Shown here in pieces: positions 14,035 to 27,485 of a stretch of 64,000 nucleotides of DNA. Numbering within the stretch: position 1 is the stretch's first letter; each line of letters begins with the position of its first letter. Origin of the DNA: Thermoguttaceae bacterium (lineage in GTDB: Bacteria > Planctomycetota > Planctomycetia > Pirellulales > Thermoguttaceae); assembly GCA_017441605.1 (NCBI GenBank), contig JAFRXD010000058.1, forward strand, positions 1 through 64,000. The letters are read 5' to 3'. A model generated the notes under the pieces. It saw only the letters and a list, made by a program, of their open reading frames with translations, searched no databases and was not told the DNA's origin. The translations under genes were made by a program, and so were the position numbers.

Positions 14035-17000
14035 TTAGAGTTCGGTCGTCAAATCGAGTTTCAAATCGAACTTCCGAGCGGCGGGCTTCGGCATGGGTCC
14101 GCAAAAGACGGCGGAGGAAGTCTCGCGAACGGAAAGTCGTTGCTCGACGGTTCTGGCGGGAACGTCGACGACCAAATCCTCGGCGATCGCGTCGACGTCC
14201 TCTTCGACGAACAGAGAATCGGTCTCGTCCGAATCGAGAAGAACGGCGGTCAGCGCGGCGTCGAGAACGGCGGACGACGCGCTCGAAACGACCGGTTTCG
14301 TCTGGTACGCGGAATCGTAGCCCCCCGCGGCCTTCTTATTAAAGGACTGCAGCGCGAGGGTGAAGTCCTCCAAGTCGTACAGGGAGTTGCCGTTGACGTC
14401 CAAGACTCGGTGCTTGACGGTCGAGATATTGTTGACCGATTTACCCTCGTAGTACTTGGTGTAGAGGGTGAAGTCTTCGAGGTCGACTTGCCCGTTGTCG
14501 TTCAAATCAAAGGCGAACGGGTAGACCTCGACGCCGGTCGGAACCGTCGCGGTCTCGACCATCGTTCCGTTGATCGCCTGCGCGCTCGCGGAAGCGGAGA
14601 ACCCGGGGTCGACGGCGTAGAGAGTTCCGGAATCGTTCAACGCGAGACCGCCGTTGGCGACCGGTTCGAAACGAAGTCGGGAAACCAAGACCCAACCGTC
14701 GGAATCGGCGGTTCCGGAACCGGTCGCGGTAAAGGCGACCGAACCGTTGGAATCGGAGGCGTCGACGGTAAAACCGGGCGCGTTCTCGGCGGCGGAGAAC
14801 GAGAAGTAGTCGGGGTTGAAGGAGAAGGAACCGCCAACGCTGGACACGGCTCCCTCGGTCGTCGCCCAAACTTCGACGTAGAAATTCGACCATTCGTCGA
14901 GCCAAGTTCTCTCCGCGGCGACCGAAGCGGACAAAGAGGTTCCGGCCGCGGAGGACGCGGAGCGCAAGACGTAACGAACGCCACCGGACGCGGAGGTGGA
15001 GTCGGAATTCAGGAGAACGGCGAAGGTTTTGTCTTGAACCCAAACAAAATCTTGCGAGACGTTCCCGGAATCGACGCGAGCGAGAGCGACGCCCATCGAG
15101 TTCGCGGGATCGCAGGAAACGGTCGTGTTAATGAGCGCGTCGAAGACGCTCGAGGTTCCGTTGCCCATCAAGACGCCGAGATAAGCGGTCCCGGCCGTCG
15201 CTTTGCGGACGAAGACGAGGTCGGCGTATCCGTCGGCGTTCAAGTCGGCGGATTGGAGTTCGCCGACGATGGAGGTGTTGTCGACGGCAGTGATCGTGCC
15301 GTTAACGGCGACGCGCCCGGTCGGCTTGGTTCCAAGCCCGTTCGCGGCGGAACGGAGATAGTAAACGACCTCGGCTGTATTGGAACCGGCGGAGGAATTC
15401 ATCACGGCCAAATCGTTCAGCCCGTCGCCGTTTAAGTCGGCGACGACGGCGGAGGTCGGTCGGCAGGGGTCGGTTCCCGAATAACGAGTCGTCAGATTAG
15501 AGGCGACCAGGGCGGAACCGGAGTTGCGCAGGATCTGGACCGAGTCGGAACTCTCGCTAACGACGACGAGATCGTCGCGCCCCGTTCCATAGAGATCGCC
15601 GGCGGCGACGGCGGAACCGACGCCAATATAAGTGCAGGAATAAGAGGCGGTAAGCGAATTTTTCGTCGTGTCCAACTTATAGACGTTGGCGGACGTCGCG
15701 GTCGTGGAATTCTTGTAAGCGGTGTAGACGACGGCGATTTCGTCGACGCTCGTTTGGCTAAATTTCCCAACCGTCAAATCGACGAACGTGCCGGGAATCG
15801 TTTGGGTCGTTAACGCGACAAGATCGCCGCCGGCGATTTGGTGGAAGATTTGGAGGCTGGAGCCGACGTTCGCTTTGTACTGAACGGCGACGTCGATAGC
15901 TCCGTCGCCGTCGAAATCGCCAAAGACCGCCTTGGCGGCGGGTTGAGAGAATTTGTAGAGCTCGGTCTGATTAGTCAGGGAGCCGTTGGCGGCGACGTCG
16001 GCGACGTAAATGTAGTTGTCGCCAACCAAAAGGGCTTCGGTCTTGCCGTCGTTGTCGTAATCGCCGACGTAAACGGAATGATACTTCGGAGAGGAGACGA
16101 CGAGGGAAGCCTCGGTAAAGACGTAGCCGTAGGCGATGGAGGCGTCGCCGAGGTAGAAGACGGAGGCGTTTTCCTCGCCGTTCGCGATAAAGAGCTCCAA
16201 GTCAGCGTCCCCCGCCGCGTCGCCCAAAGTTCCGACGGACGAGGAGTTCAAGGAGATGGAGTCGCAGGCGATCCACTGCCCTAGGGTCGTCGCGTCGACG
16301 GTCGCCCCGTCCTCGGGAGCCTCCTTCAAATTGAGGGTGGCGAGCCCGCTCTGCGCGGAACCGCCGAGCACGGATCCCACGACGAGGAACCCGTCGTTTT
16401 CCGCGACCCAATTGAAGACAAACTTAGACCCGTAACCGGTGAAATCGTAGCGAGTTTGCTGGACGGTATTGCCGGAGAACTTCGAAAGCGCGAGGTAATT
16501 GGCGCTCGCGGTCGCCTCTTTCAAAAGGAGATAGCTGTCGCCGTTAACAACGGTGGATCCGAGAAGGGTTCCGGTAACGCCGGACTTGACGGAGGGAGAG
16601 GAACCGAACGAACTCGTCGCGACCCCGGAATAGAGCGCGAGCGCGGTCGTTTGAGCGGAAGTGGTGAGCGTGGAGACTTGGAGAGCGAGATCGTATCCGC
16701 CCGAAGCGTTTTCGAGCAACGCGGAAGAAAACTCGGTAAAAACGTATCGCGACGACGCGGCGAAAGGCGAGACGTCCAAGGAGGCGGAGGAACCTTTAAC
16801 GAAGGACGAGGACGACGAGTTCCACGTATAGACGGTCGAAGTCATCGCGGTTCCGCTCGAGGAAAGAACGAGCATGTCGTCGAAACCGTCGTTGTTGAAG
16901 TCGGCGAATTTGACGTCGGAATAGAGCCCCCAATTTCCAAGTTCGCTAATCGTTTGCTCTTTCGCGAGCGAGAAATTTCCGCTACCGTCGGAAACGTAGA

Positions 17001-17277
17001 CGGAAACCGTCTTGCCCTTGCCGTAGATCGAAACAAGCTCCGCCTTTGAATCCCCTTGCAGGTTGACTAGACCGCAGAAATCGACGTTACTTGGCAGTTC
17101 GACGGAATAGTCGGCGCCGCCGGTTTGAAACTCGGTCGTCGTTTCGGCGCCAAAACCGCCCCAGTCGACGTTCAGCATTTCTCGATTTTCCAACGATTCG
17201 AGCGAGAGCCGCCGCGCTCTCCGCATGGGTTCGCGATTCTTTCGGTCGAAAACGCGTTGAAAAAAATTATTACTCAT
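14035..17277 (-). CDS. Surface protein with FG-GAP/VCBS repeats, cohesin-like domain and C-terminal dockerin
   Basis: 1080 residues from ATG 17277. That start is preferred over codons further upstream because the promoter at 17462-17490 excludes them, and the planctomycete export signature LSLESLENREMLNVDWGG then lies near residue 30. At least five FG-GAP/VCBS-type calcium-loop repeats follow (for example ADFNNDGFDD, GDYDNDGKTE, GDFDGDGAID, ADLNGDGLND, ADLNADGYAD) between about 120 and 680, probably a beta-propeller. A cohesin-like beta-sandwich covers about 790-880. A type I dockerin pair sits at 915-980 (DLNDNGQVDLEDF and DVNGNSLYDLEDF), followed by a roughly 95-residue tail. It is expected outside the cell in protein-protein or glycan contacts; no catalytic motif was seen. 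It is transcribed alone and ends at the shared terminator. Confidence 0.88.
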   Translation of the reverse strand: MSNNFFQRVFDRKNREPMRRARRLSLESLENREMLNVDWGGFGAETTTEFQTGGADYSVELPSNVDFCGLVNLQGDSKAELVSIYGKGKTVSVYVSDGSGNFSLAKEQTISELGNWGLYSDVKFADFNNDGFDDMLVLSSSGTAMTSTVYTWNSSSSSFVKGSSASLDVSPFAASSRYVFTEFSSALLENASGGYDLALQVSTLTTSAQTTALALYSGVATSSFGSSPSVKSGVTGTLLGSTVVNGDSYLLLKEATASANYLALSKFSGNTVQQTRYDFTGYGSKFVFNWVAENDGFLVVGSVLGGSAQSGLATLNLKEAPEDGATVDATTLGQWIACDSISLNSSSVGTLGDAAGDADLELFIANGEENASVFYLGDASIAYGYVFTEASLVVSSPKYHSVYVGDYDNDGKTEALLVGDNYIYVADVAANGSLTNQTELYKFSQPAAKAVFGDFDGDGAIDVAVQYKANVGSSLQIFHQIAGGDLVALTTQTIPGTFVDLTVGKFSQTSVDEIAVVYTAYKNSTTATSANVYKLDTTKNSLTASYSCTYIGVGSAVAAGDLYGTGRDDLVVVSESSDSVQILRNSGSALVASNLTTRYSGTDPCRPTSAVVADLNGDGLNDLAVMNSSAGSNTAEVVYYLRSAANGLGTKPTGRVAVNGTITAVDNTSIVGELQSADLNADGYADLVFVRKATAGTAYLGVLMGNGTSSVFDALINTTVSCDPANSMGVALARVDSGNVSQDFVWVQDKTFAVLLNSDSTSASGGVRYVLRSASSAAGTSLSASVAAERTWLDEWSNFYVEVWATTEGAVSSVGGSFSFNPDYFSFSAAENAPGFTVDASDSNGSVAFTATGSGTADSDGWVLVSRLRFEPVANGGLALNDSGTLYAVDPGFSASASAQAINGTMVETATVPTGVEVYPFAFDLNDNGQVDLEDFTLYTKYYEGKSVNNISTVKHRVLDVNGNSLYDLEDFTLALQSFNKKAAGGYDSAYQTKPVVSSASSAVLDAALTAVLLDSDETDSLFVEEDVDAIAEDLVVDVPARTVEQRLSVRETSSAVFCGPMPKPAARKFDLKLDLTTEL

Positions 17278-17461
17278 CTTTGCAACCTGCTTAAATGGAT
17301 AAAACAAGGATTGGGAACCGTCGCGCTCTGTACTCCGCGCTTCCCTCGATACGCTTCCGAAGTCGACGAGCCGCGCGCGAGCGAAACTCGTCTCCCTACT
17401 AAATGTCGCGCTTTTCCACGCTGAAAAAAAAGCGCAAAGTCGCTTCGCCGACCCGGCGTCT

Positions 17462-17490
17462 ATTATATAGCTCTCGTTTTCTAAAAACAA
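17462..17490 (-). promoter_or_regulatory. Sigma70-type promoter for the dockerin gene
   Basis: On the minus strand TTGTTT (17490-17485), a 17-bp spacer and a perfect TATAAT (17467-17462). The predicted start near 17455 leaves an unusually long leader. Confidence 0.7.
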
Positions 17491-17642
17491 TAACGATTTT
17501 AACGACAAATCCTCAAAAAGAAAAAAAGGCTCCTAAACGCGGTCGCATAATCGGCAAACCAAACCGATTTTAACGCGGAACGACTCTCGCCCAAACCGCC
17601 CTCCGCGTTTAGACGATTTCGGCGGTTAAAAGTTTCCCCGGA

Positions 17643-17715: not shown

Positions 17716-20700
17716 CTATTCTTCGCTCTCCTCGTCGCCCTCCTCTTCAAGTTCCTCTTCTTCAAGTTCTTCTTCCTCGTCTTCCTCGGAATCTTCTAGA
17801 TCTTCCTCCTCCTCTTCTTCTTCGTCGTCGGAGTCGGACGTCATAAACTCGTTGAACGGTTTGGCGATTTCAAATCGCGAATCGTCCTTTAGTCCGTCGA
17901 CGACGCTCGACCACCCTCCGTCCTCGTCAAAGTCGGCGTCGGGATCGACCGAAACGTAATCCGCGTCCTCCTCTTCGTCGAAGTCGGACTCGATTTGGGA
18001 ATCGGGAGAGTCGACGACGCTTATTTCCGCGACGTCCTCGCCGGAATCGCCGGAAACGGACGACGAAGAATTCGAGACCACCTTAATCGAGGACGAAGAA
18101 ACGGATCCGTCGACGGTCGCCGCCTCGCGCGAAGAGAAATCGGTGGAAATTTCGCTCGCGCCCGATTCGTAAACAAACTCTTCCGGGGCGACTCCCACAA
18201 CGCTCGGCTCTTCTTCGCTCGCTTTCGGCTCGACGCGGAATTCAAGCTCGTTCGGCTCTACGAGATCGACGTCGAGCGATTCGGTCGGTCGAACCTCCGC
18301 GCTCGCGGAAACGCGCTCGAAAACGGAGGCGCTCGTTTCCGCGAGGGAATCGGTCGCGCGAGAACCGTCGTCGCTCAGTTTGTACTCGAAGCTCTCGTTG
18401 TACTCGACGTTCTCGACCGCCTCGACGCCCGGTTCCGCCGGAGGGGCGTCGATCGCGTAGGCGTACGCGGAAGTCTCGTCCGCCTGTTCGACGAAATTCG
18501 GTTCGTTTTCGTCGAGCCGCTCGACGTCGACGGTAACTTCGGTCGTCGATTTCTTAATCGGGGTCAAAACGCGGAACCGTCTTCTGGCGGGATCCGTCTG
18601 GGACGGCAAAACGCGAACCGGAACGCCCAATCTGAGGAAGAGTCGGCAAATGTGCTCGTGGCACGTGAAGAGGAAGATCTGTCGCCCCGCCTTCGCGAAA
18701 TCGACGAGCAACTTCGCGGCGATCGCGGCGCGTTTGTAGTCGAAATTGACCAAAACGTCGTCCCAGATGAGCGGCATTTGAACGCCGTGTTTCTCAAAGG
18801 AAACGACAAGAGCCAGCCTAATCGCGATAAAGAGCAGCTCTCGAGTGCCGCGAGAAAGCGCCGCGACGTCGAGCGTCTCGCCGTTCGACGCGTCGACGAA
18901 GAGGGCGTCCTCGCCGAGCGGAGTCCAGATGTTGACGTACATCCCGTCGGTGAGCGTCTTGAGGAAACGCGAGGCTTCGCGCAGCGTTTCCGGTTGGCGC
19001 TCTTTTTCGTAGGCGCGACGGATATCCTCCATCACATGCTCGGAAACGGAGCGACTTTGCCACAACTCCGCCATTTTCGCCAAGCGAAGATCGGCGGCGA
19101 CGGCGTTAAATCGTTGGCGAATCGAATCCTTTTTCGCGGCGAGCGCGTCGGCGCGCTGTCCGAGCCGACCGGAAAGTTCGAGCTTCCCTTTCAATTCCGC
19201 GTCGAACGACTCGATTCGTTTAACGAGATTCTCGACCGCGATCGGAAGATCGGCGCGAACTTCCGCGTCGTCGAGCAGCGCTCTCAACTCCTCTTCCGGA
19301 TCGACTTCTTCGCCAAGAAGAGCTGCTTCAATGCCGGCGGCGAGGCGATGCTGTATCGCGTCGAGTTCGGCTCGGCGCTTAACGTAAAGTTCGCGTCGCT
19401 CCACGGCGGCGAGCAACTCCTCGCGACTCTTGACGCCCAAACTGGACAGGAACCGTCGAAGTTCGCGAACTTGGCGACGGCGCAAGGCTAGAGCTTTGCG
19501 ACACTCCTTCTTGAACTCGATCATTTCCTCGAGCAATTTGGCGCGATTGGTCAGGGAATTTGAGCGCTCCTCGAGGAGACCGCGCAATTTGGCGACTAGG
19601 AGCGTTGGCGCTTTCTCGACGATTCCAAATTTGCCGACCAGCTGGAGCGCAACGTCGAATCTGTCGGAAATCCCCTGGCGCTCTCTTCCGAGATACTCGA
19701 TCTCGGAGCGAACGGCCTCCGCCTCGCGGCGCAAATCGTCGGCGATCCCGGCGCGAGCGAGCAAGTCGCGAACTTGGCTCGGTTTGAGCGTCGTCGGCAA
19801 GTAGGCGCCGCGAAGCCATTCTCGCCATCGTTTTTTCGAGGCTTTGTAACTCGTCTCCGCTTTTTTGCGAAGCCCCTCGAGCGCCCTGGATCGACGCGTC
19901 GCCTCGCGCCACTGTTCCTCGACCGGAACGAGACCTTCAAAGAAACTCAAATCCAACTTCGCTTTTTGAAGTCGGGAGTCGAGGGTGGCGGAAGCTTGAT
20001 TCGGAGCGGGCGGGAACTTGTCGTCGAGCTTTTTCGCCTCCTCTTGCGCTTGCTCTAGCTGCTTCGTTAGCAACCCCAACCGACGCTGATTGTCTTCAAG
20101 CCTTGCGCGATTGCGCCGCTCGATGGACGTTTTGACCCAAAAACAGACGACGGCGGCGATCAGTCCGAACAGCCCGAAAACGTGATCGATTCCAAACTTA
20201 TGGAACAAGCTCAGCGCGAAAAAGAGCGCGCCGAAGAACATTCCGGCGGCGAGCCAATAGAACGGAGGGCCAACGATCGCTTGATTCTCGGCAAAGACTT
20301 TGTTCTGGCGCTCGAGTTCCTTGCGATACGAGGTCATTTCGACGACGCGCCGATCGATCTCGATGCGGCGACGAAGCCCGGCGACGAGCGCGCCGGTTTT
20401 CTCGATCGCTTCGGTCAAGTTCTTTTGCTGTCGCGAGGTCAATCCGCGCTCGAGTTTCTCGACGAGCTCGCTCAGTTTCGCGGAAACGGAATTCAACTCG
20501 TCGCGATACTTCATCAGCCGCAACCGACGTTTGCGCATCGCCTTGGCCGGAATTTTGAAATCCTCGACTTCTTTGAACGGAACGCCGTCTTCCAGCAACT
20601 TGTTCGGCAAGACGATTTCGGAAGTCTCGCCGTTTTTGCGATTCTTGTCGCGATTGGCGAGAACCGCCTCGGGGGCCATATTCTCCGCGACAATAGAGGC

Positions 20701-22134
20701 GTTAATCGCCTCCATGGCGGAAGGAGTGAGCATAATCTTGCCGTCCCGAGCGCCTCGAAGACGAACGTCTTCCTCGTTGAGCTTGACGGTCAGTTCCGCC
20801 AATCTCTCGCGCAATTTGGCGACTTGGGCGTCGATCTCGTTCAATCGCGGAAGATCGTCCTCTAAAATGGCGACGCGAGCGACCAACTCGTCCAAAACGG
20901 GGTCGATCTCGACGGCGGCGCGCTCGTCGCGTTTCGCGAGAAAAGCCTTTTTAAGCTCTCTGATTTTAAGACGGGTTTGGTTCGCGACGTCGGCGAGCTC
21001 CTTGGCGCGATCGTACGCGGGGCGCTCGATCTTGGGAACGGTTCCCATCTCGTCGAGCGCGAGCCGAGCGGCGGCGCGCTCGTCCCAAGTCGGGGCGATT
21101 TGCAGGGCGAGCTCGCGCAACTTCTTCTGTAACTTCGCCTTGTCGAGCCGCTCTTGCAGGGCGTTGGCGGCTTCGAGAACCGCGCGGCGCTCCTCGAGGA
21201 GCCGAGCGCACTCCCGCAGATCGGACGCGGTCTCCGACGCGTTTCGGCGCGATCGGTCGCGTTCGGAAAGGAGATTCTCCAAAATGGAGGGACGTCCCTT
21301 TTGATCGAGCAGATCGTTCCTTTCGGAAACGATTTGTTGGAACACCTGAACGAAAGCCCCGCGATCGACTCCAACGCTCAATCGATAGAGCATCTGCGCC
21401 GCCTCGGTCTCGTTCAACATGCCGAGCTTTTGCAGTTCGTCGAGCCCAATGGCGAAGACGCCGTTGTAGGTCGACTCGTCGAGATTGCACGTCAAAGACT
21501 TGGCGAGATAATCGCCGACGCGCGTCCCGTCGGGACCGATCACGATAAGCGATTCGGCGATTTTTTGCCCGGGCAGCGAGTAGAACCGCCCGCTCCAATT
21601 GAGGAGACCGTCGGACACGACGAACCCGGCTTTTCGCTCGACGGCGGATTGATAGCTCGCGTCGCGCCGCACGTATCGTCGCTCGAGCTTGTGCTCGCCG
21701 AAATCGGAGGTCAACGTCGCGGAACCGCCGATCCAAACGCGAGCCGCGGTTTTCGCGGCGTCTTTGGGATCGGAGGAGACGACTTCAGGCCCCGACTTCG
21801 GAGCGCGATTCAAGAAGCGACGCAATTCCGGAGGAACGTCGGAGCGCTCGTCCAACGAGGCGGCGTTGGGATCGGTTCTTCGGGGATCGTTTCGAAAGGC
21901 GTCGAGATCGGCGCCGACGCGCTCTCGCCGCTTTCTTCCGTCGAGAGCCATTTGAATGTAGCGAGCGCGGTCTTCGTCGCCGCCTCCGTAGAGGCAGGTC
22001 CGAATGAACTGCATAAGGGTCGTCTTACCGGCCTCGTTCGGTCCGAAAAAGACGTTGATCCCGCCGGAGATTTTGGGCAGATTAAGGTCTTCCCAAACGC
22101 CGAAACGCTCGATCTTTAGAGACGAAATCTTCAC
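17716..22134 (-). CDS. yhaN: YhaN-like SMC/Rad50-type AAA ATPase with membrane hairpin and long acidic tail
   Basis: 1472 residues, longer than usual YhaN proteins. Walker A is GPNEAGKT at 31-38. Long coiled coils flank a central hydrophobic pair of segments at about 615-670 (FYWLAAGMFFGALFFALSLF and FGLFGLIAAVVCFW), as in other YhaN proteins, replacing a zinc hook. The ABC-type signature LSRGTRELLFIAIRLALV and Walker B MPLIWDDVLVNFD lie around 1090-1140, so the ATPase head appears complete. From about 1180 to the end there is an extra disordered tail very rich in Glu, Asp and Ser, ending in nearly uninterrupted acid residues. The start overlaps the upstream YhaO gene by 4 bp (ATGA), so the two are translationally coupled. 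The family is assigned to DNA end processing at the membrane; the precise function here is unknown. Confidence 0.85.
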   Translation of the reverse strand: MKISSLKIERFGVWEDLNLPKISGGINVFFGPNEAGKTTLMQFIRTCLYGGGDEDRARYIQMALDGRKRRERVGADLDAFRNDPRRTDPNAASLDERSDVPPELRRFLNRAPKSGPEVVSSDPKDAAKTAARVWIGGSATLTSDFGEHKLERRYVRRDASYQSAVERKAGFVVSDGLLNWSGRFYSLPGQKIAESLIVIGPDGTRVGDYLAKSLTCNLDESTYNGVFAIGLDELQKLGMLNETEAAQMLYRLSVGVDRGAFVQVFQQIVSERNDLLDQKGRPSILENLLSERDRSRRNASETASDLRECARLLEERRAVLEAANALQERLDKAKLQKKLRELALQIAPTWDERAAARLALDEMGTVPKIERPAYDRAKELADVANQTRLKIRELKKAFLAKRDERAAVEIDPVLDELVARVAILEDDLPRLNEIDAQVAKLRERLAELTVKLNEEDVRLRGARDGKIMLTPSAMEAINASIVAENMAPEAVLANRDKNRKNGETSEIVLPNKLLEDGVPFKEVEDFKIPAKAMRKRRLRLMKYRDELNSVSAKLSELVEKLERGLTSRQQKNLTEAIEKTGALVAGLRRRIEIDRRVVEMTSYRKELERQNKVFAENQAIVGPPFYWLAAGMFFGALFFALSLFHKFGIDHVFGLFGLIAAVVCFWVKTSIERRNRARLEDNQRRLGLLTKQLEQAQEEAKKLDDKFPPAPNQASATLDSRLQKAKLDLSFFEGLVPVEEQWREATRRSRALEGLRKKAETSYKASKKRWREWLRGAYLPTTLKPSQVRDLLARAGIADDLRREAEAVRSEIEYLGRERQGISDRFDVALQLVGKFGIVEKAPTLLVAKLRGLLEERSNSLTNRAKLLEEMIEFKKECRKALALRRRQVRELRRFLSSLGVKSREELLAAVERRELYVKRRAELDAIQHRLAAGIEAALLGEEVDPEEELRALLDDAEVRADLPIAVENLVKRIESFDAELKGKLELSGRLGQRADALAAKKDSIRQRFNAVAADLRLAKMAELWQSRSVSEHVMEDIRRAYEKERQPETLREASRFLKTLTDGMYVNIWTPLGEDALFVDASNGETLDVAALSRGTRELLFIAIRLALVVSFEKHGVQMPLIWDDVLVNFDYKRAAIAAKLLVDFAKAGRQIFLFTCHEHICRLFLRLGVPVRVLPSQTDPARRRFRVLTPIKKSTTEVTVDVERLDENEPNFVEQADETSAYAYAIDAPPAEPGVEAVENVEYNESFEYKLSDDGSRATDSLAETSASVFERVSASAEVRPTESLDVDLVEPNELEFRVEPKASEEEPSVVGVAPEEFVYESGASEISTDFSSREAATVDGSVSSSSIKVVSNSSSSVSGDSGEDVAEISVVDSPDSQIESDFDEEEDADYVSVDPDADFDEDGGWSSVVDGLKDDSRFEIAKPFNEFMTSDSDDEEEEEEEDLEDSEEDEEEELEEEELEEEGDEESEE

Positions 22135-23687
22135 GAGTCAAGCTCCTTTCCGTCCAAATTTCTCGACAATTCCCGCAACTCGGCGGCGACGGCTCTATTT
22201 TTCTTCGGCAGCGCCTTGGTCGTCGCGCCCGAGTTCAGGAGAGCGACCGGCGAATCGGTCTCGGAGAGCAAGTCGACTCCAAGCGCGGCGGCTTCTAAGA
22301 GCGCGGCGCGTCGGCGCTCGGCGATGGCGGCGGCCCTCGCGGCTTCGTCGACTCCCGCGTCGTCCAGATCGGGGTCGAACGAGGTTAAATCGAACAATTC
22401 GGCGACTTCCGGCCTAAACTCCTTCGCTTCGAGAGCGGCCAATCGCGCGGGTAAGTCGCCCAAATCGGCGGTCTCGCCGTCGAGCCGACGCCGATTGGCG
22501 ATTTCGCGTTTGACGCGCGCCAAAGCGGCCCAATCGCGAACCTCGTTCGGCATAAAGGATTCGAGGTCGATTTCCTCGCTGGGATTTTCCCAATAGTAAC
22601 GGATCATCCGCAAATAATCGCCGAGAATCGTCTGTCTCTCGTACATTTCCTCGGGCATTTTTTCGGGCAAAACCGGCTCGATATCGACGGCGTAAATAAT
22701 CGGGGCGCTCTTCGCGAAATCGGCGCGCAAATCGCGGAGAATGGTCTGAGCGGCGGTTCCGTACCGGAGGGCGGGCAAAACGCTCGGATCCGCCTCGACT
22801 CGCCACTTAACGAACCAAACGTCGTCGTCGAAAGTTCGCCCGAGATAAGCGGCGGACTCAAGGGCGCGCTCGCGAATCGCCTTCAGGCGGGCCCTCGCCT
22901 CGTTGAGAATTTCGTCCTCGGTTTCGTCCTCGCGTACGACCAACGTCTCGACCGACCAGCGCAAAGGAGAAGTGCGAATTAGCGAGGTGGTCGTTCTGCC
23001 GGACTCTCCGACCTCGACCAGGGTCGCGCCGTAGTCTCCCGTCTCCGAGAAATTGCGCGCGAGCGTCGAGCCCGCGTAAACCGCGAGGCTGGGACTGCGC
23101 GAGACGACTTCGCGCGTTTTGGTTCCGCCCATCGCCCAGTATCTCACCGAATCGCTCTTAACGGCCTCGGAAGGAAGCCTTCCGTTGAAAACCCCGATCG
23201 TATAGAGATCGTCGACGTCCTCGATCGGTTCGACGCTTCTCGGAGAAAGCGCAGCGGAACCGCGACTCGCCCCGAGAAGCCGCGCGACGGGAACGCCCTC
23301 GCGCTCGAAGAAGGTTTCCTCGATATGGTCGGTCGAAAAGACGCGAACGTTGTCGGGAAAGCGAAACGCGGCGGGAATCGCCTCGGACGCGTCGCTCTTG
23401 CCCGCCGCCCAATAGACCGGAATCCGCTCGGCGCGCAATCGCTCAAATTGCTCGATGAGGAAGAGAACCCCCCAAGGCCCCGCGTCGCGAGGCGAAAGCA
23501 GATCGCCGCTCAGAACGACAAAATCGACTTTCTCTTTGATCGCGGCGTCAAAAAGCCGCTCGACGGCCGCTCGAGGCGCGTCTAAGACCGCGCTTCCGCA
23601 ACGATCCGGCAGTTCCAAAAGACCGTCGACCGGAAGCTCCAAGCGGAAATCGGAAGCGTGTAAAAATCGAAATCCTTGCGAGGTCAT
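22131..23687 (-). CDS. yhaO: YhaO-like metallophosphoesterase-fold protein lacking the metal-binding histidines
   Basis: 518 residues from ATG 23687; an upstream TTG would add 55 unlikely residues. The order of motifs follows SbcD/Mre11/YhaO nucleases, but key residues differ: HASDFRLE keeps Asp13 yet has Arg15 for the usual His; SGDLLS keeps Asp62; the GNHD motif is GKSD (96-99); the expected His of motif IV lies in VFNGRL; and the GHxH motif is GGTK in YWAMGGTKTREV. The fold is therefore recognisable while most metal ligands are lost. The C-terminal half has the helical YhaO region with an Ala/Arg-rich end. It is co-transcribed with yhaN (ATGA overlap). It probably acts as a structural or DNA-binding partner instead of a nuclease (inference); an undetected alternative metal site is possible. 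Confidence 0.8.
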   Translation of the reverse strand: MTSQGFRFLHASDFRLELPVDGLLELPDRCGSAVLDAPRAAVERLFDAAIKEKVDFVVLSGDLLSPRDAGPWGVLFLIEQFERLRAERIPVYWAAGKSDASEAIPAAFRFPDNVRVFSTDHIEETFFEREGVPVARLLGASRGSAALSPRSVEPIEDVDDLYTIGVFNGRLPSEAVKSDSVRYWAMGGTKTREVVSRSPSLAVYAGSTLARNFSETGDYGATLVEVGESGRTTTSLIRTSPLRWSVETLVVREDETEDEILNEARARLKAIRERALESAAYLGRTFDDDVWFVKWRVEADPSVLPALRYGTAAQTILRDLRADFAKSAPIIYAVDIEPVLPEKMPEEMYERQTILGDYLRMIRYYWENPSEEIDLESFMPNEVRDWAALARVKREIANRRRLDGETADLGDLPARLAALEAKEFRPEVAELFDLTSFDPDLDDAGVDEAARAAAIAERRRAALLEAAALGVDLLSETDSPVALLNSGATTKALPKKNRAVAAELRELSRNLDGKELDS

Positions 23688-24132: not shown

Positions 24133-27100
24133 TCATTCAATGACTTTCGCGGGATCGAGCGTCTTGGTGATCTTCTCGTTGAGAACTTCCAAGTGGGCTC
24201 TACCGTACCGATCGGCTCCGCGAGCGTTGGAGTTGGCGTAATCGGCGGACGAACTGGCGAGAACCGTTTGGATCGCTTTTTGCAATCGGCGCAACTCGAC
24301 CCGGGACAAACCGACAACGTCGGCAACGCCCGCCGCCGAGGAGGAACTGTCGGCGAAGGAAGCGAGACGATCGAAGTAGTAGCGCTGCAAATTGCGACGC
24401 TGCGTGCTAATCGTAACGGCGATCTTGGCGTCCTTGTTCTCCTCGAGCGCTTTCGCGGCTTCGTAAATCTCCTGGAAGACGGCGTTGGAAACGGACTCGG
24501 TCATTTCGGCGCTCGTGAAGACGTCCTCGCCCTCGGGCGTTCGAATCTCGGCGTCGGCGAGATGGCTCAACGTCAACGAACTAAAGAGTTGCGAAATAAC
24601 CGCGCTTTGCCAAGCCAAAATCGTGGAGTGAACGTCGTTGTCGTAACGCATCGGGACGGAACTGCCCCAATGGCGCCAGCGATTCGGAGCGAGATAGTTA
24701 AAGAGTTGTTGCGGGACTTTGTAGCTATCTTTGCCCAAAGCGTTCTCGACCAAGAACGCCATCGCGGCGCGCTGATCTTGCGCGGGAACGACCTCGAACG
24801 GTTTGCGATCGCCCTCGTCGCCCTTGAAGTCGCGATTGACTTTAATACCGCCGATATAGTTGGCGGCAAATTCCATCGCGCCGGCTTTCCAAGAGCAAAG
24901 CATCGTGAAACGAGTGCGAAGTCGTTGGTAAGACTCGCCGTCCTTCACGATTTGATCGTTCAATCCGGGCATAAGTTGGTCGACGAGCGCGACGCGAACC
25001 TTCGCGTATTCGAGCGGATTGTCGCCCAAGTCCCAAATATTAACGTAGGGATCGATCGTGGAGCCGTAGCAGTCCTCGTCGGTGGCGAAGTTGCACTCGG
25101 GCTTCGACTGGCGCGCGGCGATCTTCTTCAATTCGGGAAGTTCCGTTTCGGTCGACTTCCCTTGGAAAACTTTGTAGCCGTACTCGATGCACCATTCGTC
25201 GTATTCGCCAAGATGGTAGGAGTAGTAATCGCCCTGTTGACGACCTTTCGGCATAATGTTGATCGGAGTGTAGTCCATCACGGAACCGACGAACCCGTGC
25301 TCGGTCCATTTGGAAGCGTCGTTGATTTCGTCGAGATTGTGAAGAGCGCTTTGCTTGAAGGAGTGGCGCAAGCCAAGGGTGTGCCCGACTTCGTGCGTGA
25401 TCGTTTGACGCATGCCTTGCTCGTAAACCTTTTTCTTCTCTTCTTCGAGTCGTTTTTTGGCTTCTTCGCGCTTGGTCTCGGCGTCTTTCTTTTCCTTTTC
25501 CTCGGCGGCTTTCTTAGCCTCTTCCTCGGCCTTTTGTTTGGCTTCCTCTTCCGCTTTCTTGGCGGCTTCAGCCTTCGCGGCTTCGGCGGCTCTCAGTTCG
25601 TCGAAAGCGGCGCGAAGCTCGTCGAGCTTCTTCGAGGTTTCGGTCGCGACGCGAAGAGCCACGTCGGCGGCTTCTTTCGCCTCTTGGGCCTTTTTGCCCA
25701 ACTCTTCGGCGGACGCCGTTCCGGCGGCTTTCGCCTCGTCGGCGGCGGCTTTTGCCTCGTCGGCGACTTTTTGCGCGGCGGCGGCGGCTTCGCTCGCCTT
25801 TTGAGCCGTTTCGCGCAAGGCGTTTTCTTCGGCTTGGCGCGCCTCCTCGCGAGCTTTGGCGGCTTCTTCTTCGGCCTTCTTGGCGGCTTCCGCTTCGGCG
25901 GCTTTCTTCTCGGCTTCGGCTTTTTCCGCTTCGCTCGGTTCCTCTTGGGTCGATTCCTCTTGCAAACCGAGGAACGCGTCGGCGGCGGCGCTATCGACGT
26001 TCATAATGTCGAAGAACGTGTTCGCCAAGCCGAACTGTTGCGACATAAAGAGCTCCATATCGGCGCCGCAAGAGCAGTGGCGGAAATTGGAGCAATCCTT
26101 GCCTTCCATCGCGGCGATCGCGGCCTCGCGACGCGCCCCGCCGAATTTGTCGACGAGTTGGTCGGACGTGTAGAGATCAAAACTGCGAGTCCAGCTGCGC
26201 AGGAAACCGGAGGTCATGACAATATCGGCGTCGAGGATTTCCCCGGTCATCGGATTGACGCGGCTCGGACCGATCGCGAAACCGGTGTCCGTAACGGACC
26301 AACGAATCGTATTGTAGTTAATGTCCTCGGGATCCCATTCGTCGTTGTCCTCTTGCTGACGCACTTCGACGGCGTTATAGAATCCGGCTTTTTCAAACGC
26401 CTTGTTCCATTCGAGCACGGCGTCGCGTATCGTTTTGCGATATTGATAGGGGGTCGCTTTGTCGAGCCAAAACACGATCGGCTTTTTCGGAAGCGATTTC
26501 TCGGCGGTCGGTTCGAGCTTTTGGAGGTTCCAGCGGTTGATGTAGCGGATAAAGTTGTCGTCGGCGGACATTTTGCTGACGTCGCGAAGGGCGGTCATAA
26601 AGAACCCGACGCGCTCGTCGGCCAAACGAGGCTGATATCCGGAGTTCGGCAATTTGCTGATCGAATAATGGACGTTGACGCAAACGCCGCGAAGGTCGAG
26701 AATAATATCGGTCGAACCGGAACCCGCAGTGTACGTGGCGGCGACTTCCAGCTCCAAATTATCCTTCATCGCCTTGACTTTAGCCCAGGTGGAACGATCG
26801 CGAGCGAAAGAGCCAAGCCCCAAGTCGCAAAGCTGATCGCTCATAAAAATCGAGGTAACGTCGACAACGTCGCCACCGTCGGGACCTTTGGCGACAATTG
26901 GGAGGCTGTAGAGAATGCTGTCGGTGAAGGCGACTTTGAGAGCCTCCGAATCGGGACCGCTGTCGGCGCGATAGCGATAATTCCTTCGAACGATTTGAAT
27001 TCGATCGTCGACTTTCTTAAAGCGCCACAGCATATCCTCCCCGTCGCGGTCGAGCGTCTGACCGCCGTAGACGTCGGACGAACCTACCCCGCGAGCGACG

Positions 27101-27396
27101 GACATTGCGACAATATAGTCGACGTCCAACTGAGAGGAGCCAATCTCCCAATAGAGGGAGTCTTTTTTACGGTACGTCGTAATGGGACCGCCAACGCGGG
27201 TCGCGTCGGGAACCGCCTGCTCGAAAGACGGCAATGTTGGAGCGGCTTCGACTTGGACTTGGGAAGTCGCTTGCGTCTCTTCGACCGCGGTTTCGCCCGA
27301 CTCGGGAACCGGCATAGAGGTCGGTTCGTCGGCAAAAGCGATTCCGCAAACGCCGACCGTCGCCACAAGCGCGGACAGTAAAAAGCGCCGTTTCAT
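24133..27396 (-). CDS. Secreted zinc metalloprotease (DUF5117/DUF4953-like) with helical insert
   Basis: 1087 residues. Start ATG 27396 is supported by AAAGGTG and a signal peptide (MKRRFLLSALVATVGVCGIAFA). The N-terminal two fifths resemble the DUF5117/DUF4953 family of large zinc proteases (for example YRKKDSLYWEIG, DILYSLPIVAKG-type text, FWLDKATPYQYRKTIRDAVL). The metzincin-type site HEVGHTLGLRH gives His668, Glu669, His672 and His678. Between about 480 and 660, right before this helix, lies an Ala/Glu/Lys-rich segment with long predicted helices, unusual for the family. The conserved C-terminal region contains SVMDYTPINIM (the Met-turn-like element) and WNKAFEKAGF-type motifs earlier. 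It acts outside the cytoplasm on unknown proteins. It is monocistronic, with promoter 27486-27514 and terminator 23990-24036. Confidence 0.88.
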   Translation of the reverse strand: MKRRFLLSALVATVGVCGIAFADEPTSMPVPESGETAVEETQATSQVQVEAAPTLPSFEQAVPDATRVGGPITTYRKKDSLYWEIGSSQLDVDYIVAMSVARGVGSSDVYGGQTLDRDGEDMLWRFKKVDDRIQIVRRNYRYRADSGPDSEALKVAFTDSILYSLPIVAKGPDGGDVVDVTSIFMSDQLCDLGLGSFARDRSTWAKVKAMKDNLELEVAATYTAGSGSTDIILDLRGVCVNVHYSISKLPNSGYQPRLADERVGFFMTALRDVSKMSADDNFIRYINRWNLQKLEPTAEKSLPKKPIVFWLDKATPYQYRKTIRDAVLEWNKAFEKAGFYNAVEVRQQEDNDEWDPEDINYNTIRWSVTDTGFAIGPSRVNPMTGEILDADIVMTSGFLRSWTRSFDLYTSDQLVDKFGGARREAAIAAMEGKDCSNFRHCSCGADMELFMSQQFGLANTFFDIMNVDSAAADAFLGLQEESTQEEPSEAEKAEAEKKAAEAEAAKKAEEEAAKAREEARQAEENALRETAQKASEAAAAAQKVADEAKAAADEAKAAGTASAEELGKKAQEAKEAADVALRVATETSKKLDELRAAFDELRAAEAAKAEAAKKAEEEAKQKAEEEAKKAAEEKEKKDAETKREEAKKRLEEEKKKVYEQGMRQTITHEVGHTLGLRHSFKQSALHNLDEINDASKWTEHGFVGSVMDYTPINIMPKGRQQGDYYSYHLGEYDEWCIEYGYKVFQGKSTETELPELKKIAARQSKPECNFATDEDCYGSTIDPYVNIWDLGDNPLEYAKVRVALVDQLMPGLNDQIVKDGESYQRLRTRFTMLCSWKAGAMEFAANYIGGIKVNRDFKGDEGDRKPFEVVPAQDQRAAMAFLVENALGKDSYKVPQQLFNYLAPNRWRHWGSSVPMRYDNDVHSTILAWQSAVISQLFSSLTLSHLADAEIRTPEGEDVFTSAEMTESVSNAVFQEIYEAAKALEENKDAKIAVTISTQRRNLQRYYFDRLASFADSSSSAAGVADVVGLSRVELRRLQKAIQTVLASSSADYANSNARGADRYGRAHLEVLNEKITKTLDPAKVIE

Positions 27397-27485
27397 CGAA
27401 AACACCTTTCGTTAAATGTGCGTGGTAAAAATAAAAGTCTCGGCGCTCGCGGCAAAGAAGTCCGCGCAAACAACCGTTTTTATCT

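Follow-up and report, generated by a model that had tools for sequence, protein, structure and literature searches.

A planctomycete YhaO-YhaN pair whose phosphoesterase lacks most of the two-metal active-site residues and whose ATPase carries a predicted membrane hairpin

The window analysed here, a stretch of 64,000 nucleotides from a Thermoguttaceae bacterium (assembly GCA_017441605.1, contig JAFRXD010000058.1, positions 1 to 64,000 of the forward strand), carries two adjoining genes encoding a YhaO-like phosphoesterase and a YhaN-like ATPase. We propose that they form a membrane-anchored complex of the Mre11-Rad50 type in which the Mre11-like subunit is a pseudo-nuclease and which acts as a tether or sensor of DNA or DNA ends, a reading to which we give a probability of about 0.57. 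Complexes of the Mre11-Rad50 type have two roles, the holding of DNA ends and their cleavage, which laboratory work with nuclease-dead mutants has taken apart. We regard it as probable that pairs like that of the window, present in two lineages of planctomycetes, hold or sense DNA at the membrane and do not cut it. The genes and the active-site motifs of YhaO are located as follows.

22131 to 23687, minus strand: YhaO-like pseudo-nuclease of 518 amino acids (ATG at 23687, stop codon at 22131-22133), in which a helical C-terminus follows a predicted Mre11-type phosphoesterase core with its capping domain (residues 2-342)
17716 to 22134, minus strand: YhaN-like (SbcE/Rad50-like) ATPase of 1472 amino acids, GTG start at 22134, with coiled coil and predicted membrane hairpin
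22131 to 22134, minus strand: 4 bp overlap (GTGA) of YhaO stop and YhaN start, read from the sequence
23643 to 23651, minus strand: motif I, DxH changed to D13-F14-R15; the Asp (D8) is kept, the metal-ligand His (H10) is now Arg
23502 to 23504, minus strand: motif II, GD, with its Asp kept (D62, aligned to Mre11 D49)
23394 to 23399, minus strand: motif III, GNHD changed to GKSD, with K97 aligned to N84 and S98 to the catalytic H85
23184 to 23186, minus strand: motif IV, with N168 aligned to H173 (V-F-N168-G)
23118 to 23126, minus strand: motif V, GHxH changed to G-G188-T189-K190, with G188 aligned to H206 and K190 to H208

Residues are numbered as in Pyrococcus furiosus Mre11 where D8 to H208 are named, and for D49, N84, H85, H206 and H208 the correspondence was confirmed in an alignment with 1ii7, the structure of that protein. 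The residue set of the two-metal nucleases (DxH, GD, GNHD, H, GHxH) is reduced in the YhaO of the window to the equivalents of D8 and D49, that is, to two of the eight metal-binding or catalytic residues (D13 and D62), and the protein as aligned is without the residues that a two-metal nuclease mechanism requires. A profile of its relatives set against 1ii7 placed GD on G48-D49, a GGxxD stretch on GNHD and GGrh on GHIH (206-208). Separate alignments to intact YhaO proteins and to 1ii7 agree, ruling out misplaced motifs, and named relatives of 63-77% identity bear the same type of replacements, ruling out a local mutation or an assembly error. The preliminary description of this DNA had read DFR, GKSD, a missing motif IV His and GGTK, with both Asp of motifs I and II kept and the genes overlapping by 4 bp, and the sequence bears out each of these readings. 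The lost metal may have been made up for in the window's genus by Arg15 and Lys190, which would neutralise Asp13 and Asp62 through a salt-bridge network.

The AlphaFold model of YhaO (predicted local distance difference test score, pLDDT, 88; predicted template-modelling score, pTM, 0.81) matches many Mre11/SbcD structures over residues 2-342 with Z 21-25. The best match is chain C of 5dny, an ATP-bound Mre11-Rad50-DNA complex (Z 24.9, root mean square deviation 3.3 over 274 residues), and the Pfam Metallophos model scores 21.8 bits against a cut-off of 21.5. By its fold with capping domain and its linked SMC-like ATPase, YhaO belongs by descent to the YhaO/SbcD/Mre11 phosphoesterase family. 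Beyond the core, a C-terminal helix motif is conserved throughout the clade of degenerate YhaO proteins and is, by analogy with Mre11, a candidate YhaN-binding element.

22608 to 22631, minus strand: TILGDYLR, residues 353-360, candidate YhaN-binding helix

Nearly every match reads through as an open frame, with no internal stop codon. The ratio of non-synonymous to synonymous substitution rates (dN/dS, simple counting method) is 0.02-0.17 in close pairs; purifying selection is thus strong and the proteins are maintained.

Phylum-, class- and family-wide searches, with named genomes added, gave 158 distinct degenerate YhaO proteins. For the genome scan the best 80 loci were taken, all but one labelled as planctomycete. 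Among the named carriers are gut Thermoguttaceae metagenome-assembled genomes, Bythopirellula polymerisocia, Roseimaritima sediminicola, Stieleria, Rhodopirellula baltica and R. solitaria, and the degenerate relatives come from the window's order and from a second family of its class. In a sample of the class the window's order was represented by 27 genomes, of which 25 carried a classified degenerate copy (the other two held unclassified matches, one row having been merged as a near-duplicate and one genome not fetched). Family f3 carried one in 25 of its 29 sampled genomes, and in 27 genomes of other families every copy was intact. The preliminary description had suggested a variant of the family should the replacements be common to related planctomycetes, and they are, across the order and the second family.

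The degenerate proteins form one clade in FastTree (support 0.98), and a YhaN head-domain tree recovers the same clade (98). To this we add two mixture-model trees of YhaO, both made without the motif columns and their neighbours: one gave a clean split of the degenerate proteins (99), and the other gave the same split with one long SbcD row misplaced. Apart from that row, these trees rule out a long-branch artefact as the source of the single clade. A fast tree that likewise left out the motif columns, and whose root was a scattered outgroup, told nothing on this point. On these trees the degenerate YhaO proteins are a single clade, older and wider than had been assumed. A phage origin of YhaO was rejected, the sole viral match being weak: an IMG/VR contig (L294) resembling the N-terminus at 30% over about 95 residues.

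The active-site residues were lost at very different rates. H206 is kept in none of the 158 proteins, N84 in 3 and H85 in 4, D49 in 105 and H208 in 90; D8 is kept in 134 and H10 in 109, two counts biased in the named set, where the genome-scan pattern demanded D8 and either H10 or R10. Counted roughly, by parsimony on a fast tree from which the motif columns had been left out, there was 1 change for H206, 2 for H85, 4 for N84 and 8 for D8, and 11-20 for each of H10, H208, D49 and H173 (about 19 for D49 and 13 for H208). Since H206, H85 and N84 changed the fewest times, the founding loss would have hit the catalytic His and the ligands of site 2; which ligands belong to site 1 and which to site 2 is taken over from Mre11 and calcineurin structures. 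In this reconstruction H206 and H85 were lost near the base of the clade and the other ligands eroded many times afterwards. In many relatives within the clade both DxH and the second motif V His survive (HASDFHLE and GGRH); such more distant members never have H206, and partial metal binding is possible there. In the genus of the window, R10 and R208 stand beside a retained D8 and D49 in the named members, and the window has K208, so that by its residues the genus is the end state of the erosion, the last histidines replaced by Arg and by Arg or Lys. Intact histidines at other alignment positions, which the preliminary description had named as what would speak against its reading if close homologues had them, are absent from the closest homologues. 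In two further degenerate proteins (L042 and L043, in genomes G024 and G194) the GD motif itself is gone, reading AGK and SGE.

The YhaN partner retains its ATPase motifs and carries a hydrophobic hairpin in mid-protein, as follows.

22018 to 22044, minus strand: Walker A, GPNEAGKTT, residues 31-39, from the sequence
20134 to 20262, minus strand: predicted transmembrane hairpin, residues 625-667 (hydrophobic 625-643 and 649-667), from hydropathy; turn of a predicted antiparallel helix pair
18844 to 18858, minus strand: ABC signature, LSRGT, residues 1093-1097, from the sequence
18757 to 18771, minus strand: Walker B, LIWDD, residues 1122-1126, from the sequence
17719 to 18582, minus strand: C-terminal tail after the ATPase head, about 287 amino acids, 33% Asp+Glu and very acidic at its end

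The protein scores 39.3 bits with AAA_27 (PF13514-type; cut-off 22), and an NCBIfam scan gave no match to SbcC TIGR00618 at E up to 1. An AlphaFold fragment of residues 521-760 is an antiparallel helix pair whose turn consists of the two hydrophobic segments (pLDDT 91). The tip of the Rad50 coiled coil carries a zinc hook (CxxC); in the model the tip of the YhaN coiled coil is a transmembrane hairpin standing at that place. Walker A, signature, Walker B and hairpin had all been listed in the preliminary description and were found again. Its picture of an intact membrane-bound ATPase with a catalytically dead partner stands as to the intact hairpin ATPase, and for the partner we narrow it to the absence of the two-metal residues.

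The same architecture recurs among the relatives. A frame with the Walker A motif lies immediately downstream of YhaO in 66 of the 80 degenerate loci, a YhaN homologue adjoins YhaO in 75 of 81 compared loci, and -4 is the most frequent spacing of the two genes among related pairs. Signature and Walker B were present in 62 of 63 long YhaN partners of degenerate YhaO. A mid-protein hydrophobic segment was found in all 65 long YhaN proteins of the named degenerate loci, with two segments in 45, and a hairpin in 27 of 30 YhaN proteins of another degenerate sample, whereas YhaN proteins of intact pairs inside the class almost all lack such a segment. The few intact pairs that have one lie mainly outside the class (L049, L287, L289, L290 and L291). 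Dead YhaO thus goes with hairpin-bearing YhaN and the intact pairs of the class are nearly all soluble, a link absent from the preliminary description; the correlation comes from few lineages and includes no count of independent events. The dead clade stands beside members of the outside-class hairpin group in the YhaN tree as well as in the trees of YhaO, and therefore the pair that lost its nuclease would be the membrane type and the one that kept it the soluble type. YhaN is generally large in the window's genus (1329-1558 amino acids), and in the window Asp and Glu exceed 60% of the final 60 residues of its tail.

The window's genome (3.93 Mb, 82% complete) also holds a second, intact YhaO-YhaN pair (L046, on contig C53, 118000-136000). 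Its YhaO reads HAADLHID, AGDLF, GNHD, GVLHT and GHVH, and its YhaN, of about 1232 amino acids, has no hydrophobic hairpin and is apparently soluble. Twenty-eight sampled genomes have a degenerate YhaO and no intact one. Searched with the SbcD model, 26 of them gave no intact SbcD/Mre11, only the degenerate copy itself or weak matches of low score, and the other two (G246 and G272) have an SbcD-like protein; the same search recovers most intact YhaO proteins at E of about 1e-8 or better, and the missing matches are therefore not merely a matter of low sensitivity. SbcC gave nothing above its cut-off in 15 tested genomes, and no frame of the window's genome passed that cut-off. We tentatively suggest, with somewhat more doubt than confidence, that many species of two planctomycete lineages gave up the active Mre11-Rad50-type nuclease and that their sole remaining complex is a membrane-anchored, nuclease-dead tether or sensor. 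A literature search found nothing on nuclease-dead YhaO or on planctomycete YhaO-YhaN.

A complex of this kind could work as follows. With ATP enclosed between them, two YhaN heads would bind DNA or a DNA end, and the dead YhaO dimer would scaffold and stabilise the ATP-closed state as Mre11 does, without cutting. The YhaN hairpins would fix the assembly in the inner membrane, where it would hold, sense or recruit DNA or DNA ends; ATP hydrolysis would serve as the release switch and cutting would be left to other enzymes. Published work on related complexes is consistent with such a division. H85 of Mre11 is described as essential to nuclease activity (PMC4996933), the E. coli SbcD mutant H84Q is nuclease-deficient and the ATPase activity of its complex is down only about 15% (PMC6265447), and MRX in the ATP-bound state supports end tethering and signalling (PMC6567933).

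Several observations weigh against the tether or sensor. All four ligands of site 1 (D8, H10, D49 and H208) stand together in 80 of the 158 degenerate proteins, where one-metal activity is possible. In three loci of family f3 with strongly eroded YhaO (L148, L159 and L167) no hairpin was detected in YhaN. Neighbourhood comparison found no conserved third gene beside the pair beyond the window's genus and so gives no pathway. Recognition of nucleases rested on profile searches, and an active one may conceivably have escaped them elsewhere in these genomes. As to end joining, Ku occurs in only 7 of 118 genomes of the class, for which reason we rejected a general partnership with Ku-type end joining.

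Among other explanations, the one that survives best, though unlikely, is that the ATPase now serves a different purpose at the membrane, be it chromosome organisation, the uptake of DNA or protection from foreign DNA, with YhaO as a structural partner only. SbcE of B. subtilis is reportedly connected with competence, which suggests DNA uptake, and many defence ATPases show a low-scoring resemblance to SMC-like heads. However, the pair has no conserved defence or competence neighbour, and PADLOC returned generic ATPase matches for YhaN and none for YhaO, on which ground we rejected a defence system.

Less likely still, YhaO may be changed and not dead, a one-metal (site-1) phosphoesterase or a metal-binding sensor of which the window's genus is a further specialised form. 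It would account for the 80 proteins that keep site 1 while N84, H85 and H206 are gone, and for the retention of D8 and D49 in the window's genus. Yet the catalytic H85 has gone along with the ligands of site 2, the numerous tree changes of D49 and H208 are unexpected for an essential catalytic site, and the window lacks both H10 and H208.

It is improbable that the dead pair regulates the intact YhaO-YhaN of the same cell, for instance through mixed dimers that damp or direct the nuclease. Both pairs do occur in the window's genome and in most sampled genomes of family f2, but 28 sampled genomes have the degenerate form alone, 26 of them without any intact SbcD/Mre11/YhaO, and the YhaN of the intact pair is almost always soluble in the class. 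That the genes are decaying, with YhaO on its way to a pseudogene, would fit the frequent changes of active-site residues in the clade and is contradicted by the open frames, the conserved fold and C-terminal motif and the dN/dS values, on the last of which we rejected it.

Two neighbouring genes are conserved beside the pair in the window's genus only. The gene at 24133-27405 (minus strand) encodes a secreted-looking, zinc metalloprotease-like protein with the motif HEVGHTLGLRH, interrupted by a long Lys/Glu/Ala-rich stretch. The large gene at 14035-17508 (minus strand) has repeats resembling FG-GAP and dockerin-like motifs.

If the tether or sensor is real, it is a natural separation of the structural role of Mre11 from its catalytic role. 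A clade that lacks the cutting residues and keeps fold, ATPase and membrane anchor would serve as nature's own test of the value of the non-cutting role, and one would have to ask by what means blocked or hairpin DNA ends are processed in planctomycetes that have no recognised Mre11/SbcD nuclease.

The pair can be set beside four known systems. Like the intact planctomycete YhaO-YhaN (L046), it consists of homologous, adjoining YhaO and YhaN genes, but the intact pair has all eight active-site residues, a YhaN without hairpin and a separate lineage. Like YhaO-YhaN of Firmicutes (SbcEF, in which SbcE is YhaN), it joins genes for a PF13514-type ATPase and a calcineurin-like partner, and the YhaN of B. 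subtilis also bears a membrane hairpin; the Firmicutes YhaO is taken as an active nuclease type, whereas the phosphoesterase of the window is without most metal-binding and catalytic residues. With SbcCD and Mre11-Rad50 it shares the predicted phosphoesterase core with cap and an ABC/SMC-type ATPase with long coiled coil; it differs in having no two-metal site and in the predicted membrane hairpin that would stand in for the zinc hook at the coiled-coil tip. The B-subunits of eukaryotic DNA polymerases, like YhaO of the window, are phosphoesterases of a DNA machine that have lost the active site, and have turned into scaffolds (PMC4996933), although they stand in the context of an OB fold and a polymerase domain and their loss was independent.

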